NCBI GenBank assembly: GCA_026391845.1 | Contig: JAPLDG010000315.1 | Location: forward strand, 1 to 35,442 | Direction of reading: 5' to 3' | Length of the DNA: 35,442 nt | Source: Bacteroidota bacterium | Lineage (GTDB): Bacteria; Bacteroidota; Bacteroidia; Bacteroidales; FEN-979 | Shown: positions 439 through 12,800 of the stretch, piece by piece | Layout of the letters: each line of letters begins with the position of its first letter | How positions within the stretch are numbered: the first letter of the stretch is position 1 | Notes under the pieces: generated by a model | What the model saw: the letters and a program-made list of their open reading frames with translations, nothing else | Databases searched by the model: none | What the model was told of the DNA's origin: nothing | Translations under genes and position numbers: made by a program

Positions 439-1740
439 ATGAAAAATTTACAAAAATTTCTTTTCACAGCCGGATTGATGATCGCGGCTGCAAGCTTATT
501 TTTAGCTTCCTGTACGAAGGAAGGTCCTCAGGGCACTGCCGGAAAGGACGGAGTGAACGGCATTAACGGAGTAAACGGTGTTGATGGTTTGAATGGCAAA
601 GATGCAAACGCTTCCTGCCTGGTTTGCCACACCATTGCTAATTTCGATGCCAAGATTGCTGAGTACCACTTATCAAAACATTATCTGGGCACTTCAAGTT
701 CCAGAAATACGAAGTTCTGTGCCAGATGCCACGTAAGTGAAGGATTTCAGCAGGTACAAGGCAGCGGACAAAACGTAGTTGCCAACGATATGCCGGCTGC
801 CAACAGGATTAACTGCACCACCTGCCACGCCCATACCGGGTTTGACTTTTCAGGCGATACGGTTTCTCAGGTCCTTTATACCACTGCACCGGTATCTTTG
901 CTTTACAACAAGGGTGCTTCAGCCACCGATTTTGGCGCATTGAATAATTTATGCGTGAATTGCCACCAGATTCGCGGCGCCACTGCCCTGGTCTATTCCG
1001 ACACAACCCTTACGCCTGATGTCATCAGCAAACCATTTGAGCAGCTTCCGTACTTCCCGTTTGCCAATGCAAGCGACAACGACACCGTTCAATACCTGGT
1101 TGGCAGAAGTTTTTCGGTTCATGATGGAAACCAGTCAAATCTTTTTGCCGGGATCAACGGATACGAATACAAAGGCAAAACCTACACAAGAACATGGACA
1201 CACTCTACCAATGCATGTACCGACTGCCACATGAATGAGTATGATGCCGCTACCAAAGAAGGTGGTCACACCCTGATCGTTAACAAAGCTGAATGTACTG
1301 CCTGTCATGGTGGAGATAAACTTACGCTCATTCAAACTGCTATCGATGCTAAAATAATCGAATTGCGCGACCTGCTCGTTACCAAAAAAATCTTCAAGAA
1401 AACCACTACCACCACAGGTTTTTCCTATGCTGCGTTGCCAACCCATGATTTCAATGGCAAGCTATTCCCAACGACTCAAACCCCTGGCGATCTTTTTGCA
1501 ACCAATTCAACCAATAATACGGTTAGCCCAACCACCGGCCTGGTCGTTTACGGTATCATGCTGAAATATGCAAAAGACAATGATTTTGCAATCAGATTAG
1601 GCCGCCCGATGAAGTATGGTGAATTAGGCGCTGCTTACAACTATGCATACATCAACAGTGAATTATCAAAAGGCGTGCACAATCCTGGTTACGCCATGCA
1701 GATCTTACAGAATTCCATTGATTGGCTGAATGCTAATTAA
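439..1740 (+). CDS. Hexaheme c-type cytochrome lipoprotein with collagen-like spacer
   Basis: The protein has 433 residues. The ATG at 439 is chosen because it begins a clean lipoprotein signal (hydrophobic stretch, LFLASC lipobox, lipidated Cys25); an upstream in-frame start at 370 would bury it and overlaps the promoter box. Residues 29-55 are nine Gly-X-Y triplets, like short collagen-type spacers. Six CXXCH heme sites follow: CLVCH (60-64), CARCH, CTTCH, CVNCH, CTDCH and CTACH. The heme-free C-terminal quarter ends in helices with GVHNPGYAMQIL, a pattern seen in multiheme cytochromes of the nitrite-reductase-like fold. The likely location is the outer membrane, held off the lipid anchor by the Gly-X-Y segment. 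It is the first gene of the locus and is followed by a terminator. A terminal surface electron carrier is the best guess; the substrate is unknown. Confidence 0.85.
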   Translation: MKNLQKFLFTAGLMIAAASLFLASCTKEGPQGTAGKDGVNGINGVNGVDGLNGKDANASCLVCHTIANFDAKIAEYHLSKHYLGTSSSRNTKFCARCHVSEGFQQVQGSGQNVVANDMPAANRINCTTCHAHTGFDFSGDTVSQVLYTTAPVSLLYNKGASATDFGALNNLCVNCHQIRGATALVYSDTTLTPDVISKPFEQLPYFPFANASDNDTVQYLVGRSFSVHDGNQSNLFAGINGYEYKGKTYTRTWTHSTNACTDCHMNEYDAATKEGGHTLIVNKAECTACHGGDKLTLIQTAIDAKIIELRDLLVTKKIFKKTTTTTGFSYAALPTHDFNGKLFPTTQTPGDLFATNSTNNTVSPTTGLVVYGIMLKYAKDNDFAIRLGRPMKYGELGAAYNYAYINSELSKGVHNPGYAMQILQNSIDWLNAN

Positions 1741-1760
1741 ATCTGTGATATTTATTACAG

Positions 1761-1809
1761 CAACACAAATTCCGGAAATGTGAATAGAGTGTTTTTGGAA
1801 TTTGTGTTG
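1761..1809. other. Perfect 13-bp inverted repeat downstream of the hexaheme gene
   Basis: CAACACAAATTCC (1761-1773) is the exact reverse complement of GGAATTTGTGTTG (1797-1809), with a 23-base loop. It lacks a following T-run, and a separate terminator lies 22 bases downstream. In mRNA it would form a long AU-rich stem just past the stop codon, possibly protecting the message end or pausing transcription. Confidence 0.6.
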
Positions 1810-1830
1810 TCTTTCAAGAATTGAAAAACA

Positions 1831-1861
1831 AAAGGCCTCAGCGAACCTGAAGCCTTTTTTA
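1831..1861 (+). terminator. Intrinsic terminator after the hexaheme gene
   Basis: GGCCTCAG and CTGAAGCC form an 8-bp stem (one mismatch) around a CGAAC loop, followed by a T-run. It would separate the hexaheme gene from the downstream genes at least in part, making expression of the first gene higher than the rest. Confidence 0.75.
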
Positions 1862-1941
1862 CAAATGAGACAAAACTCCTTTTATTGCATTAAAAATCCA
1901 TCAACAAAACATTTATCCTTCATCCAAAAAATAAATTGATT

Positions 1942-2346
1942 ATGCAAAGCAAAAAGTTGAAAAATCTGTTCACAATCTTTTTCGCGCTTATTATCTTTTC
2001 ATCCTGTACGCGCGATTATATTGTACCGGATCCCCCTGCTGCCCCTCCGGCTCCGCCGTCACCCACTGAAAATAAAATCAGTTATTCCGTGGAAATACAG
2101 CCCATTTTTACTGCAAAATGTGTCCGCTGCCATGGTGTAGGCCAGGTTGCTCCTGTTCTTGCCTCCGGTAGTTCCTACCAGTCGCTGATGAGTACTTCCG
2201 GAATGATCGATACCGTCACTCCTGCAAACAGCATTCTTTACAAGGAAATGCTGCCTCCCGATGGCGGCATGGTTCAATATGGAAGCACCAAAGCGAATTC
2301 CGATTCAGTTTATAAGTGGATCAGGCAGGGCGCAAAAAATAATTAA
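1942..2346 (+). CDS. Monoheme c-type cytochrome lipoprotein with proline-rich linker
   Basis: The product has 134 residues. The ATG at 1942 is preferred over an in-frame TTG six bases upstream. The lipobox IIFSSC gives a lipidated Cys22. A Pro/Ala-rich linker (about residues 29-41) leads into a small cytochrome domain with one heme site, CVRCH (60-64), and a later MLPPDGGM segment that could supply the distal Met. The arrangement (VEIQPIFTAKCVRCHG ... ILYKEMLPPDGG ... IRQGA) is that of the small planctomycete-type cytochrome c domains common in Bacteroidota. It sits 30 bases before the beta-barrel gene, so the two are probably co-expressed, and may pass electrons between a soluble periplasmic carrier and the barrel or the hexaheme lipoprotein. 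Confidence 0.82.
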   Translation: MQSKKLKNLFTIFFALIIFSSCTRDYIVPDPPAAPPAPPSPTENKISYSVEIQPIFTAKCVRCHGVGQVAPVLASGSSYQSLMSTSGMIDTVTPANSILYKEMLPPDGGMVQYGSTKANSDSVYKWIRQGAKNN

Positions 2347-2376
2347 TTGATTTATTTACACAAATAACTAAAGGAA

Positions 2377-3459
2377 ATGCATACATATAAGATGGGTAAA
2401 ATGAGACGATTATTGCTCGGTTTCATCTTCACAATTGGCGGTCTTGGAATGGTCGTTGCTCAGGATTCAGTTCAGGAACAACCGGCCACAAAATCATTTG
2501 CAAAAGCGGCATTTGAGAGCGGGTATTTTATTGCAGACCAAACCGTTGCAATGGCCCCTCCAAAAACGCTTGAACTCGTAATCCAGCATGATTTCGGCAC
2601 GATCCAGCAAAAATGGTCCGATCTTTACGGACTTTGGGGAGCCTCCAACGTTCGGATCGGGTTTGATTACACGATCAATAAAAATCTTCAGATTGGCTTT
2701 GGAACCACCAAATTTAAAATGCTCCAGGATTTCAATATAAAATATGTGGTTGCCCGTCAAAAAGAGGAAGGTTTTCCTGTTACCATCACCCTTTTTGGCA
2801 ACGTGGCCATCAATGCCATGAACAAATCAACCCTGGGAAATAATAAACTGGATTCAGATCTCGATTATGGATCCATTGTGAAAGATTCTGCATTCAGGTC
2901 AAACCTGATCAATCAGACCGTACAAAACGACACCATGTATGGGATGAATTATATCACCTATAATCAGGCAACCGGACTCAAAGGAGCCAATGAATCTGAC
3001 CTGAGCTCCCTTTTTGATCATACTTTTAAAGCCTCTTACAGGTTCTCCTATTTCGCCGAAGTCATGATCGCCCGCAGATTCTGTAAAGAATTTTCCGCAC
3101 AGTTGGGAATTTCCTGGGTTCATTACAACCTGGTTAACCAGACTGCTATGGAAAACAACCATGTAAACGGCACATACAACGATAACATCAATATCTCAGG
3201 GATCGGCAAAATCAAGGTCAGCCCGCAAACCTCCGTCATGTTAAGCTATTCACAACCTGTGTGGACTTACACGAATACCGCACCCTGGCCCAATTTTGGT
3301 TTAGGCGTTGAAATTTCCACAAGCACGCATGCGTTCCAGGTCTTTCTGACATCAGCAAACGGCATGGTACCGCAGGAAATCGTGATGTACAATCAAAATA
3401 ATCCATATAACGGGTACATACTTCTTGGATTCAATATAACCCGGTTGTGGACCTTTTAA
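2377..3459 (+). CDS. DUF5777-family outer-membrane beta-barrel protein
   Basis: The 360-residue protein has a signal peptide ending near VVAQD and then alternating amphipathic strands to the end, closing in the aromatic C-terminus ITRLWTF expected of an outer-membrane barrel. Family hallmarks are FESGYFIADQTV, LELVIQHDFGTI, LYGLWGASNVRIGFDYTI, FGTTKFKMLQDFNIKY and LGVEISTSTHAFQVF, which I recognise as DUF5777. The start is uncertain among Met codons at 2377, 2392 and 2401; the one at 2401 gives the most compact signal peptide. DUF5777 genes commonly accompany c-type cytochromes in Bacteroidota; no transport substrate is known. Between two heme lipoproteins and a soluble cytochrome, it could be the barrel of a porin-cytochrome conduit. 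That role is inference, because no heme sites are present in the barrel. Confidence 0.85.
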   Translation: MHTYKMGKMRRLLLGFIFTIGGLGMVVAQDSVQEQPATKSFAKAAFESGYFIADQTVAMAPPKTLELVIQHDFGTIQQKWSDLYGLWGASNVRIGFDYTINKNLQIGFGTTKFKMLQDFNIKYVVARQKEEGFPVTITLFGNVAINAMNKSTLGNNKLDSDLDYGSIVKDSAFRSNLINQTVQNDTMYGMNYITYNQATGLKGANESDLSSLFDHTFKASYRFSYFAEVMIARRFCKEFSAQLGISWVHYNLVNQTAMENNHVNGTYNDNINISGIGKIKVSPQTSVMLSYSQPVWTYTNTAPWPNFGLGVEISTSTHAFQVFLTSANGMVPQEIVMYNQNNPYNGYILLGFNITRLWTF

Positions 3460-3503
3460 ATTCACAGCTTTAACACAATTTCTAACCACTTAAAAGCAAC
3501 ACT

Positions 3504-3917
3504 ATGAAAACAACTCAAAAAATCGCAACAATTATGGTAGCTGCAGTCATTGCTGTAGTTTTCCTGTTCGGAAATGCTGTTCATGCGCAGGCAAAAGCAA
3601 AACCATGGCCTGTGCCAGATAAAGACAAAGCCATGAAAGCGCCTGCAAAAGCAGATCCGGCTACCGGCAAGGAGCTTTGGGCAAAACATTGCAAATCATG
3701 CCATGGAAGCAAAGGCCTGGGCGATGGTCCAAAAGCCGCTTCCCTGAAAGTTTTCCCTGGCGACTTCTCCTCTGCTGCATTCCAGGCATTTACTGATGGC
3801 GAATTATTCTATCGCACCGACAAAGGCCGCGATGAAATGCCCGCCTATGAAAAGAAAATTCCCGATGCAAAAGATCGCTGGGCCCTGGTTGCTTACATGC
3901 GTACCTTTAAGAAATAA
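3504..3917 (+). CDS. Periplasmic class I monoheme cytochrome c
   Basis: This 137-residue protein starts with a strong Sec signal ending near AVHAQA. After a Lys/Pro/Ala-rich linker (about 31-52) comes a single cytochrome domain: ATGKELWAKHCKSCHGSKGLGDG with the heme site CKSCH (63-67) and a later DEMPAYEKKI, where Met112 is the probable sixth heme ligand. The ending DRWALVAYMRTF is typical of class I cytochromes. It lacks a lipobox, so it should be a soluble shuttle in the periplasm, suited to carry electrons from the membrane cytochromes encoded downstream to the outer-membrane proteins encoded upstream. A terminator follows 30 bases after the stop. Confidence 0.88.
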   Translation: MKTTQKIATIMVAAVIAVVFLFGNAVHAQAKAKPWPVPDKDKAMKAPAKADPATGKELWAKHCKSCHGSKGLGDGPKAASLKVFPGDFSSAAFQAFTDGELFYRTDKGRDEMPAYEKKIPDAKDRWALVAYMRTFKK

Positions 3918-3947
3918 GTGCATGTTGATTCAACCATGATGAACACA

Positions 3948-3990
3948 ATGGGTGTTATCAGGGCTTTCCTGCTAACACCCATTTTTATTT
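3948..3990 (+). terminator. Intrinsic terminator after the monoheme cytochrome gene
   Basis: ATGGGTGTTA (3948-3957) pairs perfectly with TAACACCCAT (3973-3982), followed by a T-rich tract. It splits the cytochrome locus into outer-membrane/periplasmic genes upstream and inner-membrane complex genes downstream; the next start is only 31 bases away, so read-through is likely. Confidence 0.75.
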
Positions 3991-4021
3991 CCCAACCCGA
4001 TGAACAACTCCAACTAAAAAT

Positions 4022-5050
4022 ATGATTCGCAAAGCAAATATCCGGCCTGCCTGGGCTGTCCTCGTGCTGATGATGTTATGCCTGATTTTATTCACGCTGA
4101 TTAAAACATCAGACACCTCTACAGCAGTAAATAAAAAAATCCAATCCGAACTGGAAACCCCCAGCAAAACAGATCATTCGAAGTTTAAAAATGCTGTCGA
4201 AAATGAAAATTGTTTCAAGTGCCATGGCCAGTCGAAATATTCCTACGAAAATCCTGAATCAAAAAAAACTGTTACGAAGAAAATGTTCGCCGAATTAATC
4301 ATGAACCGCGATGTATTCTACGTTTCAAACCATCGCGAATTCAAATGCACCGATTGTCATTCCGAGGATTACAATACGTTTCCCCATGCAGGCAACCTGC
4401 GCATGGAAACAAAAGCCAATTGCATCGACTGCCATGGCGGAGATGAAAAATACGCAAAATTCAAATTCGAACAAATTGAAGCGGAATTCCAGGCCAGTGT
4501 CCATTCTGAAAAGCATAGCGCCGATTTTACCTGCTGGATGTGCCACAATGCACATACTTACAAAATAAATGCCCGCTCAAACGAAAATATTGAGGAAACC
4601 ATCACCTATGATAACATGATTTGCCTTAACTGTCATGGTGATCTGAAAAATTATCAATTGCTGACCGACAAGGTCAAACCCAATATCTTAAAAAAACATG
4701 AATGGCTGCCCAACCAGGCATCCCACTTTACCAACGTCCGTTGTATTGAATGTCATGCCAGAAATGAAGATACGCTGGTTGTGGCCCATCATGTCGTTTC
4801 GAAAAAAGATGCCGTTAGAAAATGTGAGTCATGCCATTCAAAAAACTCCATTCTTTATGCCTCTTTGTATAAATACCAGGTTAGTGAAAAAATACAGAAA
4901 GAGGGCGTTATCAAGGGGTTGCTGATGGGAGAAAACACCTCTATCGGGCCCGATAAAAGCAACACCCTGAATATTATCAGCCTGGTGATTTTTGGACTCA
5001 CTGTTCTGGTCATAATTATCCACGCGGCCCTGCGCATTAAAAACAATTAA
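4022..5050 (+). CDS. Membrane-anchored heptaheme c-type cytochrome
   Basis: The protein has 342 residues with an N-terminal membrane helix (about 11-28), a periplasmic domain and a C-terminal membrane helix (about 317-337, IISLVIFGLTVLVIIIHAAL). There are seven CXXCH heme sites: CFKCH (64-68), CTDCH, CIDCH, CWMCH, CLNCH, CIECH and CESCH. Spacing and the two anchors resemble NapC/NirT-like and octaheme-type multiheme proteins only in general terms; I cannot place it in a named subfamily. It lies five bases before a b-type cytochrome gene and in the same transcription unit as iron-sulfur and NrfD proteins, so it is the natural electron exit of an inner-membrane quinone-linked complex. A C-terminal helix as well as the N-terminal one suggests it is fixed in that complex. 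Confidence 0.87.
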   Translation: MIRKANIRPAWAVLVLMMLCLILFTLIKTSDTSTAVNKKIQSELETPSKTDHSKFKNAVENENCFKCHGQSKYSYENPESKKTVTKKMFAELIMNRDVFYVSNHREFKCTDCHSEDYNTFPHAGNLRMETKANCIDCHGGDEKYAKFKFEQIEAEFQASVHSEKHSADFTCWMCHNAHTYKINARSNENIEETITYDNMICLNCHGDLKNYQLLTDKVKPNILKKHEWLPNQASHFTNVRCIECHARNEDTLVVAHHVVSKKDAVRKCESCHSKNSILYASLYKYQVSEKIQKEGVIKGLLMGENTSIGPDKSNTLNIISLVIFGLTVLVIIIHAALRIKNN

Positions 5051-5055
5051 TACAG

Positions 5056-5662
5056 ATGAACCATCAAACTGAAAAACTCTATCTATATCCTGTCTGGATC
5101 AGGATCTGGCACATGACAAATGCCCTGCTCTGCCTTATTTTAATCGTAACCGGGTTAAGTATCCAGTTTTCAAATCCGAACACAATGGTTAAATTCAATG
5201 CCGCAGTTGCTGTGCACAACGTGGCAGGAATTATTTTGACAATCACCTATGCACTGTTTTTCATCGGGAATCTCTTTACGCCAAATGGCGCCTATTATGT
5301 AATTCCCGTTAAAGGATTCCTTGATCGCCTGATGAAACAGTTCAGGTATTATACGATCGGAATATTTAAAAAAGAAGATGCTCCGTTCCCGGTAAATGAA
5401 GAAGGCAAATTCAACCCGCTTCAGCAGGTTACCTACGTAATTCTGATGTACGGCTTTGTTCCTTTCGTCATCGTTTCAGGTTGGGGACTTCTGTATCCCG
5501 AGATGACACATCAGCGGACTTGACCTCACCGACCTGCTTCATATCGGATCAGGATTTTTAATCAGTATTGTCATGTGTGTACATGTCTATTTTTGCACCA
5601 TCGGAAAAAATCCGACAAGTAACTTTAAAAGCATGATTAATGGATATCATGAATCTCACTAA
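5056..5662 (+). pseudogene. b-type cytochrome, transmembrane; reading frame broken by a frameshift
   Basis: Frame one runs 5056-5523 (155 codons) and stops early after WGLLYPEMTH. The missing end is in the +1 frame: from about 5507 it reads SGLDLTDLLHIGSGF and continues through IVMCVHVYFCTIG to NGYHESH, stopping at 5660-5662. Joined, the protein would have about 200 residues and four membrane helices, with paired His residues (H19, AVHN near 53, LLH, and CVHVY) as expected for two b hemes of the FdnI/HyaC/thiosulfate-reductase cytochrome b type. The shift must lie between 5507 and 5523, because the +1 frame has a stop at 5504-5506. A one-base insertion or two-base deletion, real or from assembly, explains it. 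No slippery run is present, so programmed shifting is unlikely. Intact neighbours favour a recent mutation or sequence error. Confidence 0.85.
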
Positions 5663-5673
5663 AATTTATACCT

Positions 5674-6636
5674 GTGGAAGAAGCATTGAATAAAGACGAG
5701 AAAAACTCCCGTCGTCAGTTCCTTAAAAAAGGACTTATTGCCGGCGCAGGGGTTGCAATAGGAAGTGGCCTCATTGCTGCATATGTTGATGCAACAGCCA
5801 CTGAAACCGGCGAAAAGGTTAAAGTTCTGACCACCGATGGTGAAATCATGGAGGTGGACAGAGGTTTGCTCAAACTCCCTCGCGTTTCCCGGGAAGAATC
5901 GCACAAAGGAATTCCGGGTCGCAAATTTGTGATGGTCATTGACCTTGGAAAGTGCAAAAACGCCCGAAAATGCGTGGAAGCATGCCAAAAAGGCCACCAC
6001 CTTCCGAAGAGCCAGGAATTTATGAAGGTTTACCTGCTTCAGGACTCTGAGAAAACAGCCCCCTACTGGTTTCCAAAACCCTGCTTCCATTGCGATAATC
6101 CATTGTGCGTCAGCGTTTGCCCTGTAGGAGCTACCTACAAACGCAGCGATGGCATTGTGTTGATCGACAACGAACGCTGCATTGGCTGTAAATTCTGCAT
6201 GACGGGCTGCCCCTATTCAACCCGCGTTTTTGCATGGAAACATTACCCTGAATTTGATGAAGACAAGGAACCCTATTCACCTGAAGCCAGCAGCCCCGGA
6301 AGGGAAGGCACCGTTTCGAAGTGCGATTTTTGCCCTGATCTGATCCGGGTTGGTAAAATTCCCTATTGCGCTTCCGCCTGCCCGATGGGTGTCATCTATT
6401 TTGGTGATGTTGATGAGGATACGGTTACCAACGGAACTGAAACCTACCAATTCAGCAAGCTCATCCACGACCGTGCCGGGTACCGCTACCTCGAAACACT
6501 GGGAACCCGCCCATGCGTTTATTATCTGCCTCCTGTTGACCGGCAATTCGAAGTAGACCGCGGCTTCGGCGACCTTGCACCCGAGGTTAAAGAAAGGTAC
6601 AAAGACACACCATACAGTAAAAAAAATAAACCGTAA
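5674..6636 (+). CDS. Tat-exported 4Fe-4S ferredoxin-type subunit (NrfC/PsrB/DsrO-like), one cluster site altered
   Basis: The product has 320 residues. The start is GTG at 5674, the first start after an in-frame stop at 5650. SRRQFLKKG at 12-20 is a twin-arginine motif, followed by a hydrophobic stretch, so the protein is folded with its clusters before export. Cysteine groups are C137/C140/C145/C149, C169/C172/C175/C179 and C217/C220/C232/C236, three normal cluster motifs. The first group has C94, C100 and C104, but the second Cys of CX2CX2CX3C is Ala97, so only 15 of the 16 usual cysteines are present. Loss of that position often gives a [3Fe-4S] cluster in ferredoxins. It ends two bases before the NrfD gene, its expected membrane partner, and should carry electrons between NrfD and the cytochromes. 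Confidence 0.88.
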   Translation: MEEALNKDEKNSRRQFLKKGLIAGAGVAIGSGLIAAYVDATATETGEKVKVLTTDGEIMEVDRGLLKLPRVSREESHKGIPGRKFVMVIDLGKCKNARKCVEACQKGHHLPKSQEFMKVYLLQDSEKTAPYWFPKPCFHCDNPLCVSVCPVGATYKRSDGIVLIDNERCIGCKFCMTGCPYSTRVFAWKHYPEFDEDKEPYSPEASSPGREGTVSKCDFCPDLIRVGKIPYCASACPMGVIYFGDVDEDTVTNGTETYQFSKLIHDRAGYRYLETLGTRPCVYYLPPVDRQFEVDRGFGDLAPEVKERYKDTPYSKKNKP

Positions 6637-6638
6637 CC

Positions 6639-7955
6639 ATGGAACTGCAACCAAAAAATCCACTACGAGACTTTGCACCACAATTAGAGCGGACTTCTTT
6701 TCAGGGATACGCCTGGATCGTTTTCTTATTAGCCGTTATCGGATTGGGCGTTTATGCTTTCCTTCAGCAAGTGATTAAAGGGCATGAAGTTACCGGAATG
6801 CGCGACAACGTGGTCTGGGGAGTCTATATTGTTAATTTTATATTTTTCATGGGCGTCAGTTACGCAGGGGCGTTAATCTCCGGAACACTGCACCTTTTTA
6901 AAACAGCCTGGCGTAAACCGATCATCCGGATGGCCGAATTCATCACCATCATCGCCCTGTTGATCGGACCCTGCTTCATTCTGCTTTGCATCGGCCGGCT
7001 CGATCAATTGCACTATCTGGTGCTCTTCGGACGCATCCAGTCACCAATCACCTGGGACGTTATTGCCATCTCCACCGACATTTTCGGGTGTTTTATCTTC
7101 CTCTATCTCTCCCTATTACGCGATCTGGCCACCCTCCGGGATGATGAACTTCTCCGGCTCCCAAACTGGAGAAAGAAATTGTATAAAACCCTTGCCTTGG
7201 GATATACCGGAACTCCTGAACAGCAGCAGCGGTTAAACAGGGCAACCGATATCATGGCAGCCATGGTTATATCCATCGCCATTATCGTGTACTCGGTTCT
7301 GGCATGGATTTTCAGCGTTACCCTGCAACCTGGCTGGCATAGCACCATATTCGGACCCTATTTCGTCATTGCGGCGGTCTATTCCGGAAGCGCTGTGCTG
7401 ATCATCTGCATGTGGGTTTTCAGAAAAGTATATCACTTAGAGGATTATATCACAAAAAAGCATTTTGTAGCCGTGGGTGTGATCATGCTTGTTCTAGCAG
7501 CCGCCTTTTTCGGCTACTTTACTTTCAGTGATTATCTTACCAAGTGGTATGGTTCCGAAAAAAATGATGAATTGCTGATCCAGTTGCTTTTCAAAGAATT
7601 CTACTGGCCATTTATCATCTCAAACTACATCGGTGTTCTCCTGCCTCTTCTGGTCGTTGGCATTGCCAAATTCAGAACAATAACCAACATCACCCTTACC
7701 TCTGTTGTTGTCGTGATCGCCCTGTGGCTGAACCGTTACATCATCGTTGTTCCAACCCTTGAATCACCCTACCTTCCGATCCAGGATTCACGGCCCGAAT
7801 GGCTGAACTATTCGGCTACCTGGGTAGAATGGAGCCTCACAGCAGCCGGAGTTGCCATATTTTGTCTTCTGTTTACGCTGGCATCAAAATTCATCACCAT
7901 CGTACCTGTAACAGGATTGCAGAAGGAAGAGAAAAAAGAAGATATTTTAGTTTAA
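6639..7955 (+). CDS. nrfD: NrfD/PsrC-family quinone-interacting integral membrane subunit
   Basis: The 438-residue protein has about ten membrane helices (first near 21-43; last near 400-425) and lacks a signal peptide. It matches the long NrfD branch (HmcC, DsrP, ActC/ActF type) by sequence pattern: WGVYIVNFIFFMGVSYAGAL, FITIIALLIGPCFIL, a charged loop between helices four and five, and IIVVPTLESPYLP near the end. These proteins oxidise or reduce quinone within the membrane and pair with an iron-sulfur subunit like the one just upstream (two-base gap, so translational coupling is likely). No heme ligands are expected. The neighbouring cytochrome b could supply a second quinone site. The symbol denotes the family only; no NrfA nitrite reductase is encoded here. 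Confidence 0.88.
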   Translation: MELQPKNPLRDFAPQLERTSFQGYAWIVFLLAVIGLGVYAFLQQVIKGHEVTGMRDNVVWGVYIVNFIFFMGVSYAGALISGTLHLFKTAWRKPIIRMAEFITIIALLIGPCFILLCIGRLDQLHYLVLFGRIQSPITWDVIAISTDIFGCFIFLYLSLLRDLATLRDDELLRLPNWRKKLYKTLALGYTGTPEQQQRLNRATDIMAAMVISIAIIVYSVLAWIFSVTLQPGWHSTIFGPYFVIAAVYSGSAVLIICMWVFRKVYHLEDYITKKHFVAVGVIMLVLAAAFFGYFTFSDYLTKWYGSEKNDELLIQLLFKEFYWPFIISNYIGVLLPLLVVGIAKFRTITNITLTSVVVVIALWLNRYIIVVPTLESPYLPIQDSRPEWLNYSATWVEWSLTAAGVAIFCLLFTLASKFITIVPVTGLQKEEKKEDILV

Positions 7956-7985
7956 TTTTTCACCGGAATTACTCAATCTATACTT

Positions 7986-8885
7986 ATGAAAAGAGTTTTC
8001 GCGTTCGTACTGTTTTTTGGAACCCTCATCTCTGCAGCCTTTCAGCCAATGAACCTGTTTGCAGAAGAAAAGGCGGACTCCGCCAATATTCCGGTTGAAT
8101 CGCGCCTGGCGCTGAACTATTTATGTGCCAATGATTCGATCATTTTAACAGCAACCCTCAGTATTAAAAGAGGCGAAGCAACCCTGGCCCTGGAAAATGC
8201 CCTGGTTGAGTTAACGGCATCTGACGGAACAAACTCTACCCTTTTAGGCAAGGTAAAAACTGACCAGGAGGGTATCGCTGTGTTGAAAATTGCCGCTGCC
8301 GGATTGCCGGCAAATATGGATGGCACGGTCGCTTATTCTGCAACATTTACCGGCAACAGCAAATATCCCGGCGCCGATGCTTCCTTCAGCGCCAAACTGG
8401 CCAAGATCCGGCTGTTTTTCAGCATTGAAGACTCTCTCCGGATTTTAAAGGTTACCGCTACTCAGAAAAATGCGAAAAATGAAGAAGTTGCCATCCCAAA
8501 AGAAACCGTTCTCATTTATGTACCGCGCCTTTTCAGTTTTTTAAAAATCGGTGAAATTACCCTGGACGAAAATGGAACAGGAACCATGGAGTTTCCGAAA
8601 GAAATCGTCGGAGATACGCTGGGAAACCTGGTCGTAGTAGCCAACATCGAAGAAAACGACCAATTTGGATTCGTACAAGGACGGAATACAATCAACTGGG
8701 GTGTTCATAAGCAGTATTACAAGGCTGAAGTGCCCTCTCGTGAGCTCTGGACGCCGATCGCCCCCATGTGGATGATTATCACCCTGCTTGTCATGCTCGC
8801 AGGTGTATGGGCTCACTACATGTATGCCGTTTATGAACTGGTCATGATCAAAAAACTCAGCAAAAAAGATAAACCCCTCTTTTAA
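7986..8885 (+). CDS. Membrane-anchored periplasmic protein with Ig-like domain, unknown function
   Basis: The 299-residue protein has a signal peptide (about 1-25), a mostly beta-strand periplasmic region and a single C-terminal membrane helix (about 257-280, IAPMWMIITLLVMLAGVWAHY) with a lysine-rich cytoplasmic tail. The first half contains a Big_1/invasin-like pattern (ALENALVELTASDGTN, VKTDQEGIAVLKI, TVAYSATFTGNSKYPG), that is, a domain describing an immunoglobulin-like fold. It has no cofactor motif. It is the last gene of the block, 30 bases after NrfD, so it probably belongs to the complex as an assembly or docking subunit. I cannot name a family with certainty. Confidence 0.75.
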   Translation: MKRVFAFVLFFGTLISAAFQPMNLFAEEKADSANIPVESRLALNYLCANDSIILTATLSIKRGEATLALENALVELTASDGTNSTLLGKVKTDQEGIAVLKIAAAGLPANMDGTVAYSATFTGNSKYPGADASFSAKLAKIRLFFSIEDSLRILKVTATQKNAKNEEVAIPKETVLIYVPRLFSFLKIGEITLDENGTGTMEFPKEIVGDTLGNLVVVANIEENDQFGFVQGRNTINWGVHKQYYKAEVPSRELWTPIAPMWMIITLLVMLAGVWAHYMYAVYELVMIKKLSKKDKPLF

Positions 8886-8919: not shown

Positions 8920-9372
8920 ATGCAACAAGGTCATAACTCCCCCGATGTACTGGAAGCCCTTTCGAAGGGAGATATCCGGAAAGCAAATGAATTGATGGGA
9001 TCAGTTTATCTGGTTGAAGCACTGGTCGTTCATGGCAACCACCTGGGCAGAACCCTCGGATATCCCACCGCTAATCTTCAATTGCCTGACAGTAAACCGT
9101 TTTTATTGGCCAATGGCGTTTATGCCGTAAAAGTCGAAATTGATCAGGTGGTTTATAAAGGAATGGCGAATGCCGGTATCCGCCCCACTATTTCAGGAAA
9201 AGCCTTAACCGTGGAAGTCAATATATTTGAGTTTTCCGGCGACATTTACGGCAAAAAGCTCGTTGTCTGTTTTTTTGAGCGTATCCGTGATGAGAAAAAA
9301 TTCGACTCGCTTGACCTTCTGGTTCAGCAAATCCACCTTGATAAAGCGGAAGCGCTGAAACTACTTTCCTGA
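8920..9372 (+). CDS. Riboflavin kinase domain protein lacking the FAD synthetase half of RibF
   Basis: The 150-residue protein matches only the C-terminal half of bifunctional RibF: a short leader typical of the inter-domain linker (LEALSKGDIRKANELMG), then GRTLGYPTANL, the ATP/flavin loop, GMANAGIRPTISG, VEVNIFEFSGDIYGK with the probable catalytic Glu, and ERIRDEKKFDSLDLL. The reaction would be riboflavin + ATP to FMN. The N-terminal FMN adenylyltransferase domain (about 180 residues) is missing and cannot lie upstream, because an in-frame TAG occurs at 8905. It may be a genuine monofunctional kinase or a truncated duplicate that kept its kinase; the intact motifs favour function. It starts 35 bases after the cytochrome locus and its 3' end overlaps the convergent lipoprotein gene by 12 bases. 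Confidence 0.85.
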   Translation: MQQGHNSPDVLEALSKGDIRKANELMGSVYLVEALVVHGNHLGRTLGYPTANLQLPDSKPFLLANGVYAVKVEIDQVVYKGMANAGIRPTISGKALTVEVNIFEFSGDIYGKKLVVCFFERIRDEKKFDSLDLLVQQIHLDKAEALKLLS

Positions 9373-9861: not shown

Positions 9862-12800
9862 TTGCCGGAAATTTAATGATAAATGTGGTGCCTTTCCCTA
9901 CTTCAGTCGTACATGTTATTTCTCCGTTCATCCCCTCCACGATACCCTTCACAATGGCAAGACCTAACCCCATCCCACTTGTTTTTGTTGTAAAGTCCGG
10001 CAGGAAAATTCTCTCCATACGGTCAGGCAATATGCCGCAGCCATTATCTGATACTCTTACAACCAGTTGGTGTTGCTCCCTGGCAATGTGAATCGTGACG
10101 ATACCCTTCGAGTGATCATCAATCGCCTGAACTGCATTATTCAATAAGTTGGTAAAGAGCCGGATGAGTTGTGACCTGTCTCCAACAATCAATGGATCAG
10201 TTACTTCACATTTCAGCTCATATCGAATTCCGGTAGTGTCCTGGTATAATGAAAGGACAAATCCAACAGCCTCTTCCAGATCAACCTCTGTAAATCCGAC
10301 AGTCTTCATTTTAGCGAAATCGGAGAAATCTGATGCAATCACAGAAAGTGCATCTATTTGTTCCACCAGAGTCTTCGTGAATCGGGCAAGCCTCTGATCC
10401 CAATCCGGAGCCTTGTCGTTCCAGGCCTTTTCCAGGTATTGTGCACTTAGCTTGATGGGTGTCAGGGGATTCTTTATTTCATGGGCTACCTGCCGGGCCA
10501 TCTCTCTCCATGCACTTTCGCGCTCCGATCTGGCCAGCAATTCAGCGCTCTTCCCCAATTCATCAATCATCCGGTTGTATTCCGCAACCAATTGACCGAT
10601 CTCATCGGTTTGTTTCCAGATAATTTTTTCATTGACTTTGCCCAGGCGAAGAAGCGACATTTTATGTGCCAAAATAGCCAGTGGAGCCGTTATATAGTTT
10701 GAAATCAACACGGTAAAAAATATTCCGAATAAAATTAACAGGATATAAACATTGAGAAAAGTGACCAAAAACGAAGATATCTCCTTTTTCAACTCGTCTT
10801 GTTTTGCAAAATATGGAAGATTCACAAAACCAAGCAGTTGATCATGATCATTGTAAAATGGAAGATAGGCTGAATTGAATTGCATCTCCCCGATGGTCTC
10901 CTGGTGAATATATAGGGAATATTTTTCCAAAATCAGGTTCCGGTATGCGTCCGCATTCATTCTGTCAGACAAAAGACCCTCTTCGAAAATTTGCGGGCGG
11001 CTCGATGAAACCAACATGCCTGTACCGTTATAAACATTGATATCAGTAAAAAACACATTGGACAATTTGACCAGAAAATCTTCCAGCTCCTCTTTTGGAA
11101 CCGACTGTAATCCTGACAATTGACTGAATTTATGCTGTACTTCAACCACGATGGAATAGGCCCTTTCGCGCAAATTATCTATATTCTTTTTCGAGTTTAT
11201 TTCAATGATATTGATGATCTGGACGACACCGATTGCCAGCATGGTCAGCATCAGGATGCCGATTAAAAATACATGGAGTTTCGTTCTGAGCGTTGCGATG
11301 AAGGGATTGAGTCTGGCCGGGAAATTTACCATGATTGATACAACCAGGGCCATCATGGTAAAGAGAATAAAAAGATAGGAAAACGGCGTTGCGAAAGATA
11401 AAAATGAGTCATCTTTTTTACTGATGATCAAGGTGGTGGCATCATTGATGCGATAGCGAAAATGGATCATCTCATCCTCCGTGAAGCAGGTGTTTTCAGC
11501 AGAGTCCGACTGATAACGGCCTGATTCCATTTTATATCCATATGTCCCCACCGCCCTTATCAACCTGCCGTTTTGAAATAAGGCGTAGGAATAATCGGAA
11601 ATATTTGGAAGAACCACCCTCGCTTTATCCATAAGCAAACCAGGGTAACCCGGATCGGGGAAGGTGTTTTTTAAATTAAACTCAATGAATATCGCAGGCC
11701 GGATGTCAGACGCTGAAACGAGTCCCTTCCGCGTAAATACAGCAAGGTAGTACTCCTTACCAAATCCGTCATCTAAAAAATAGAGGTCAGGCACTTCTGT
11801 TACCTCTCCATAACTTTGAATGATTCCCCTGAAATAACGATCACAGTTTACCAAATAACCTTGTGGCTGGATCCTTAACTGCTTCGCCGAATCACACAAG
11901 GTAATCTGGATCTGATATTTCCTCCAGTAATCTTTAAAATAATGTGTTTTCAGATATTCGGCCAAACTGTCCTGGCCAATTATCGGGATGCCGGATGAAG
12001 GATTTATCCACCGATTCAACAATGAATCCGCCTGAAGTCTGCGCTCTGTCAACTCATAAAGCACCTCGGTGACCGGATTTCGCTGTGTCACCAATTTGCC
12101 TGCCAAAAGATTCAATTTTTCCGTTTCCTTGGTGCGGTTTGAACCGTTTAGTAAAATCGTCGCGAAGATCGCATAAAAACAGAGAAAGAACAGCAGGTTC
12201 TGTACAGAAAACAATGCCATTTTCTTTGCTTTAAAAAAGCAATGCCACGCTGTGTAAATCAAGAAAAACAGTGTCACCGTAAAATTAATGTTCCACCCTG
12301 CAAGCCAGCAGATCAGACTATAACCAAGGGCCACCGTGATGGCCGACACAGCGATCCGTTCCAGCTTTTGCGATGATAAAAAAATAAAATCAAACACCCT
12401 GCCGGCAAGTAGCCACAACGAAAACAGCAACGCAGAAATAATGTATAAACCGAACCCGCTTTCATATGTTAACCCGGAAATATTCTTTAAATTCAGTGAT
12501 AAAGATGAGTTGATCACCAGGTCAGACATCAGATACGCGACAGCCTGAAAGAGAAGAAGGAGTATGGCAAGGGCAAAAATCATCCGGGAATACCGGCGGA
12601 TTGACCCGATTGGTCGCCAATTGTTGTTAAGTGAGCACCTTTTATATGCCATGAGGGATATCACAAAAAGCAATAAGGCATTCAAGGTAAAATCACCCAG
12701 CGAAGGAAGGAAAACGGAAGAAGAATAATAAGCCGGACCAAAAAGTTCTGACCGGTAAAGCTCTCCTGGAAACTCTGAATAATGCTGAACAACCCTGAGT

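Follow-up and report, generated by a model that had tools for sequence, protein, structure and literature searches.

A nine-gene cytochrome and NrfD locus of uncultured Bacteroidales, a candidate system for electron exchange with the cell surface

Several described systems share parts with the locus studied here. In proteins of the CbcL layout, 3-23 c-heme motifs and a b-type membrane domain lie on one chain (PMC6295460). SirCD of Shewanella and Cbc4 (CbcSTU) of Geobacter combine an iron-sulfur (FeS) protein with NrfD and give quinol electrons to export, and SirCD can substitute for CymA with ferric citrate (PMC11434368). OcwA of Thermincola potens is a surface terminal reductase that is related to NrfA and MccA and has two open hemes (PMC6703420). 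An anode-enriched cluster, Bacteroidetes_1, holds six multiheme cytochromes and one barrel with best matches in Bacteroidetes and Ignavibacteriae (PMC8258643), and Ignavibacteria with OmbB-like porin-cytochrome genes have been reported (PMC7399161). We analysed contig JAPLDG010000315.1 of a Bacteroidota bacterium (assembly GCA_026391845.1; 35,442 nucleotides), called the window, which carries a locus of nine genes at positions 439-8885. In our reading, to which we give a probability of about 0.6, the locus is an anaerobic respiratory operon under Fnr control whose products exchange electrons with the cell surface, export being the most likely direction. The closest analogy for its working would be a quinol oxidase of the CbcL/Sir type coupled to a surface reductase of the OcwA type.

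The window corresponds to contig C157 of the source genome (G000), which comprises 4.6 Mb in 343 contigs and has an estimated completeness of 93%. Loci fetched for comparison are given L-numbers and genomes G-numbers. A sequence-only reading of the window had proposed nine consecutive plus-strand genes, and all nine were confirmed by the reading of open reading frames (ORFs) and by family scans; it had overlooked a break in the cytochrome b frame and the end of a regulator gene in front of the locus. The first gene encodes c6lip, a hexaheme lipoprotein with six CXXCH motifs and a collagen-like linker (439-1740). It is followed by c1lip, a monoheme lipoprotein with one CXXCH and a Pro-rich linker (1942-2346, with an alternative TTG start at 1936), by an outer-membrane barrel of the DUF5777 family (2377-3459, family match 1.8e-64) and by cytc, a soluble class I monoheme cytochrome c (3504-3917). 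The inner-membrane part begins with c7anch, a membrane-anchored heptaheme cytochrome with seven CXXCH motifs (4022-5050), and a cytochrome b of the b561/PhsC type (5056-5523). Then come a 320 aa FeS protein of the DsrO/PsrB kind with the twin-arginine motif RRQF (5674-6636), the NrfD-type membrane protein (6639-7955, scan 1.4e-29) and a membrane-anchored protein whose Ig-like match is weak (7986-8885; 0.0016, 19.4 bits, below the curated cut-off of 35.5).

Membership in the Hmc, Tmc, Qrc and Dsr systems was judged by the NCBIfam cut-offs, and among the matches listed no locus protein reached them. The scores were 168.9 of 200 bits for DsrO and 88.7 of 350 for DsrP, 119.3 of 400 for QrcC and 38.6 of 570 for QrcD, and 72.7 of 420 for HmcB and 13.6 of 114 for TmcA. 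The earlier statement that the locus does not match Hmc, Tmc, Qrc or DsrMKJOP was thus borne out. With CbcL, MtrH and MtoC the locus shares a multiheme c domain and a b-type membrane domain, which are fused in three of the loci compared (L045, L060, L116); in the window they are two genes with seven hemes, and the likeness is one of layout. SirCD and Cbc4, compared by description, have the FeS-NrfD pair in common with the locus, which differs by its Ig-like subunit, the heptaheme/b pair and an ActC-like NrfD. Alternative complex III likewise has an ActC-like NrfD, and the FeS protein matches the C-terminal part of ActB; however, the FeS protein has 320 aa versus 933-1039 aa in ActB chains, the locus has one NrfD and no second one (ActF), and no oxidase adjoins. 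An outer-membrane barrel with lipidated cytochromes recalls MtrCAB and other porin-cytochrome conduits (PCC), but here the barrel is a 12-strand DUF5777 protein, no decaheme gene adjoins and the genome has no MtrB/PioB match. The Bacteroidetes_1 cluster, by its description, sounds like six c6lip clusters from other classes (L167-L172, see below), whereas the window has NrfD and FeS genes instead. In the literature searched, DUF5777 was not mentioned, a query for NrfD, Bacteroidetes, extracellular electron transfer and multiheme gave only a review on methanotrophic archaea, and the gene set was not named in the titles or abstract openings listed. The gene combination was not found described; its parts are of known kinds, and the tests made do not place the system in any of the complexes named.

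The hexaheme lipoprotein was compared with solved structures by a profile of 46 c6lip sequences searched against the PDB. The best matches were 6i5b (OcwA, 1.3e-12) and 6qvm (1.1e-11), with NrfA (1.4e-10) and the octaheme nitrite reductases (ONR, 3.7e-10) ranking behind them; the E-values to these four, which span 1.3e-12 to 2.2e-9, flatter the kinship because CXXCH-rich profiles also match unrelated cytochromes. The 6qvm entry is probably OmhA, a surface cytochrome of Carboxydothermus ferrireducens, since its length of 681 aa equals that given by the OmhA coordinates (PMC7829351). When the AlphaFold2 model of c6lip was compared by Foldseek, 6i5b was again on top (chain A, E 2.3e-3; chain B, E 3.1e-3; prob 1.00) and NrfA next. 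By profile and model, c6lip is a member of the NrfA/OcwA multiheme superfamily, with similarity across the heme core and the C-terminal helices, and it shares an S-x-G-x-H-N stretch with OcwA. Unlike OcwA and OmhA, it has six hemes rather than 9 or 11, is a lipoprotein on a collagen-like tether and comes from a diderm host.

Exactly six His beyond those of the CXXCH motifs are kept in c6lip, five in 100% and one in 98% of the 46 sequences. All six hemes could therefore be bis-His, which would suit electron transfer more than catalysis, and no open heme site is apparent, compared with two in OcwA. The CXXCK heme and the CHVEYY motif of NrfA are catalytic. In the alignment they correspond to CXXCH and CHQPR in c6lip, and c6lip was rejected as a working NrfA nitrite reductase because neither motif is retained. 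The source genome has one c6lip and no match to canonical NrfA (PF02335) at E 0.001; c6lip thus has no known nitrite reductase to back it in this genome. The locus had been described as lacking a catalytic subunit. No molybdoenzyme was found, but c6lip is itself a candidate terminal reductase, which is proposed to act at the cell surface.

In the inner-membrane part, the heptaheme cytochrome has seven invariant candidate distal His for its seven hemes (33/33 sequences) and one additional conserved His inside the C-terminal membrane helix. The cytochrome b ORF of the window has 155 aa; the remaining ~50 residues, with two of the four conserved His, lie in another frame that runs to 5662. Among L006-L085, the 80 relatives introduced below, 66 of 67 complete cytochrome b ORFs have 202-231 aa and one has 180 aa. 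In L120, from another class of the phylum, cytochrome b is fused to a NapC/NirT-type multiheme domain as in the ImcH layout. An ORF of ~500 aa with CX3CH and six CXXCH motifs lies at 10 of the 80 loci (11 ORFs; those of six loci were read), and the source genome encodes such a protein away from the locus (L127). The one copy scanned was of the NapC/NirT type, as in ImcH, and the protein was discarded as a nitrite reductase candidate.

The NrfD protein is closest to ActC of alternative complex III (6f0k_C, 2.4e-73), and the FeS protein scored highest with DsrO, below its cut-off. For the Ig-like protein, comparison with the PDB gave no convincing solved relative (best E 0.034). Its domain is tied to NrfD because the source genome also encodes an NrfD paralogue of 738 aa (L002) that carries a homologous domain on the same chain (1.9e-73, residues 463-738). 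This second FeS-NrfD set (L002:1-2952, contig C45) has an NrfD 58% identical to that of the window, and long NrfD frames similar to it occur in many family genomes. A further set of FeS, NrfD, monoheme cytochrome and SCO-like ORFs stands directly before haem-copper oxidase-like ORFs, as judged by eye (L090:7878-15503, contig C328). It is a small alternative-complex-III-like set, separate from the locus and with an NrfD 37% identical. The source genome also holds a distinct cluster in which ORFs with 9, 4, 5 and 8 hemes lie close to an ORF resembling a histidine kinase (L128:7187-17071, contig C106).

In the outer-membrane part, the AlphaFold2 model of the barrel (pLDDT 79) has 12 strands and resembles OmpG, NanC, FapF and FadL. 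MtrB has 26 strands. A barrel of the modelled size is too narrow for an MtrA-type heme wire, unlike MtrB, and no match to MtrB/PioB (PF11854) was found in the source genome. The idea that the barrel is a classical porin-cytochrome sheath was accordingly given up. The counterpart of the barrel gene in L119 and L120 is an ORF of ~400-430 aa that begins with CXXCH, gave no match in Pfam and was taken for a barrel by eye. The heme motif of c1lip varies: among 64 ORFs, 44 have CXXCH, 14 CX4CH, 5 CXCH and 1 neither, the five with CXCH being those of L014, L016, L017, L019 and L020.

The conservation of the locus was followed from its NrfD: a search with this protein gave 89 relatives, and the top 80 were retained (L006-L085, 1.3 Mb of loci in all). 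Their titles mostly name Bacteroidales, Bacteroidetes or Bacteroidia, with one Cyclobacteriaceae and one Alphaproteobacteria, and about eleven are named after Lac Pavin. Gene presence was counted in the 45 wide loci, those whose flanks reach 8 kb or more before NrfD and 3 kb or more after it, the other 35 being too short. The barrel, heptaheme, FeS and NrfD genes were each present in 45/45, and c1lip, cytc, cytb and the Ig-like gene each in 44/45; the single wide locus without a separate cytb is L060, whose cytb and heptaheme form one ORF. The fnr gene was found in 43/45 and c6lip in 38/45; in L057, one of the seven without c6lip, an ORF with six heme motifs looks similar. The same gene set recurs in other genomes, with the barrel and the cytochromes together, and the refuting case named in the sequence-only reading, a lack of such co-occurrence, did not arise.

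Among 43 genomes of the source genome's own family, which probably overlap with the 80 loci, the heptaheme gene occurred in 37, c6lip in 39 and a close NrfD (E <= 1e-230) in 32; 36 genomes had both heptaheme and c6lip, and 34 of them carried the two on a single contig. Beyond the family the heptaheme is rare, with 3/295 genomes of the class, the source genome included. In the phylum search it was found in 9/395 genomes, seven of them of one family, and all nine also hold c6lip; because the phylum searches for both genes scored no more than the top four or five candidates in each genome, absences carry limited weight. The co-occurrence of the locus genes exceeds chance. Pairwise distances, which bear on the proposed comparison of NrfD and heptaheme phylogenies, correlated with r 0.85 for NrfD-heptaheme (70 loci), 0.76 for NrfD-barrel (69) and 0.37 for NrfD-c6lip (48), but we do not take this as proof of a linked system because shared ancestry and adjacency alone could produce it.

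A dedicated reductase just outside the locus, including a molybdoenzyme hidden at its borders, was looked for with the genome's own Psr-type molybdoenzyme. No homologue was found in the 80 loci (1.3 Mb, E 1e-3), in agreement with the sequence-only reading; many flanking ORFs are unassigned and other kinds of enzyme were not searched for singly. The positive control, a Psr-like operon elsewhere in the genome (L089:6065-9661, contig C268), has its molybdoenzyme split across two overlapping ORFs of 233 and 498 aa. In two loci that were read upstream of the fnr gene (L008, L014), an aspartate-semialdehyde dehydrogenase-like ORF was seen by eye.

Control by an Fnr-type regulator was examined next to the locus and in the relatives. 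The window holds the C-terminal end of a Crp/Fnr-type regulator on the plus strand (3-182), truncated by the contig end, and a perfect Fnr-type box, TTGATNNNNATCAA = TTGATATATATCAA, at 275-288 (no strand assigned), 150 bp upstream of c6lip. Cysteines that could be Fe-S ligands were counted in the relatives (L006-L085), where 59 of 60 Fnr-type ORFs keep a CXXC near the N-terminus and a Cys ~98 residues on, and 46 of 60 have a further Cys. The whole window has three Fnr-type sites with at most one mismatch, which is the number expected by chance, and for this reason the evidence from the boxes rests on the relatives. Before c6lip a perfect box was found in 18/54 and a box with at most one mismatch in 42/54 (the window was excluded for its short flank), and before the fnr gene in 14/59 and 48/59, respectively. 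The corresponding counts were 5/61 and 16/61 before c1lip, 2/70 and 4/70 before the barrel and 3/29 and 8/29 before a riboflavin kinase gene. No perfect box was found in 467 regions upstream of cytc, heptaheme, cytb, FeS, NrfD and the Ig-like gene. For c6lip and c1lip together, 23 perfect boxes in 115 upstream regions compare with a mean of 0.27 and a maximum of 2 in Markov shuffles, uncorrected for the kinship of the loci. The box was rejected as a mark of a wide regulon: the genome has 18 perfect sites, and 14 of the 17 outside the locus fall within ORFs.

To see c6lip in other surroundings, 13 further regions were fetched (L165-L177). In six of them, from other classes of the phylum (L167-L172), c6lip stands beside 12-14-heme, other multiheme and barrel-looking ORFs (the barrels judged by eye), and the cytochrome b of L168 matches ExtP of the Geobacter ext operon (5.5e-61, 206 of 290 bits, below the cut-off). 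Two regions (L165, L166) have c6lip with the NrfD module and two (L173, L174) with a set of CXXCH ORFs. In two genomes of the same class, G415 (a single contig, with region L165) and G593, c6lip, c1lip, barrel, FeS, NrfD, Ig-like and cytc genes are present, whereas the heptaheme and cytochrome b were not recognised in the 19 kb fetched; the NrfD module may thus suffice. In L165, from a same-class genome, a lipoprotein with an EB_dh domain (PF09459, 1.5e-30) lies between c6lip and c1lip (10553-11785). At L079:15771-18854 and L069:14968-18066, a CcsBA-like ORF of ~1030 aa (by eye, cytochrome c maturation) stands beside fnr and c6lip, and in both loci c6lip sits apart on the other strand.

From these parts a path can be proposed. 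Judging by family and architecture, the oxidation of menaquinol in the inner membrane would fall to the FeS-NrfD pair, to the heptaheme and cytochrome b acting as a split CbcL-like unit, or to both. Through the heptaheme, acting as a wire of bis-His hemes, the electrons would pass to cytc, the soluble protein with one heme, and would reach the outer membrane at c1lip, whose gene adjoins that of the small barrel; the two genes occur together in the relatives, and their products may be in contact. They would end on c6lip, tethered by its collagen-like linker, and pass to an outside acceptor, for example Fe(III), Mn(IV) or humics. Three findings make an exchange of electrons with the exterior, as proposed from the sequence alone, more likely: c6lip is kin to OcwA, heptaheme and cytochrome b make a CbcL-like pair, and Fnr boxes are present. 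They do not fix its direction. Since the barrel is too small for the MtrB type, the route across the outer membrane is left without a sheath. A broader claim, that c1lip together with the 12-strand barrel makes up an electron conduit of a new type in the outer membrane, unlike MtrCAB/PCC, which feeds OcwA-like surface hexahemes, and that anaerobic surface respiration is a core trait of the whole uncultured Bacteroidales family, is tentative and in our view rather doubtful.

Several observations weigh against the operon being an electron export system of this kind. All 80 relatives are metagenome-assembled genomes by title, and the cytochrome b of the window itself is broken. c6lip was absent near NrfD in 7 of the 45 wide loci; in the phylum its homologues were found in 66/395 genomes, 57 of which showed no heptaheme, and three of the 13 further regions (L175-L177) show no cytochrome partner for it. 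Ten more distant c6lip loci had one near-match and no perfect Fnr box, which is why Fnr control is assigned to the Bacteroidales version. The OcwA match of c6lip is strongest in the last ~140 profile positions, and the profile also reaches the cytochrome subunit of the photosynthetic reaction centre (1.1e-6). The c6lip model has a pLDDT of 64 and gave no Foldseek match below E 1e-3. The barrel model is narrow, as described, and the surface exposure of c6lip and c1lip is a prediction.

The same genes could serve a soluble acceptor such as nitrite, hydroxylamine, NO or a sulfur oxyanion. In that case c6lip would be a reductase from the NrfA/ONR/MccA superfamily, in the periplasm or at the surface, and the acceptor would enter through the barrel. 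The matches of c6lip to NrfA and ONR would suit this, as would the resemblance of the barrel model to the small-solute channels NanC, OmpG and FadL; the Fnr boxes are compatible, and OcwA itself reduces nitrite (slowly) and hydroxylamine (PMC6703420). We consider it unlikely, however, since c6lip, with six further conserved His for its six hemes, has no obvious vacant site, the Lys-heme and CHVEYY motifs are not kept and PF02335 found nothing in the source genome. The chain might also run inward, so that menaquinone would be reduced with electrons that c6lip takes up from a surface, from a partner cell or from Fe(II). Gene content alone fixes no direction and CbcL/MtrH/MtoC proteins have been linked to both, but ImcH-type proteins, found beside the locus in 10/80 relatives, are so far tied to quinol oxidation only (PMC6295460); inward flow thus appears improbable. 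Least probable by far is an alternative-complex-III-like quinol:cytochrome c reductase that feeds an oxygen reductase, with the outer-membrane genes as unrelated passengers. The ActC-like NrfD and the L090 set beside oxidase-like ORFs point that way; yet that set is a separate locus with an NrfD only 37% identical, the barrel, c1lip and mostly c6lip remain with the locus described here, and the Fnr boxes also speak against it.

Three ORFs 3' of 8885 are outside the system. A riboflavin kinase domain ORF of 150 aa (8920-9372) lacks the FAD synthetase half and accompanies the operon in 23 of the 45 wide loci; beyond it, on the opposite strand, lie a small ORF and a large histidine kinase-like ORF, as judged by eye.

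Uncultured Bacteroidales are usually read as fermenters. The gene set described here appears built to carry respiratory electrons from the inside to the outer surface under anoxia. The structural question it poses is how an outer membrane equipped with no more than one-heme proteins and a small barrel lets electrons through. If the export reading is true, OcwA-like terminal cytochromes operate beyond the Gram-positive thermophiles in which they have been studied, and most of the family (heptaheme in 37/43 genomes) could respire outside acceptors such as iron or humics, with a bearing on the turnover of carbon and iron in anoxic waters and sediments.

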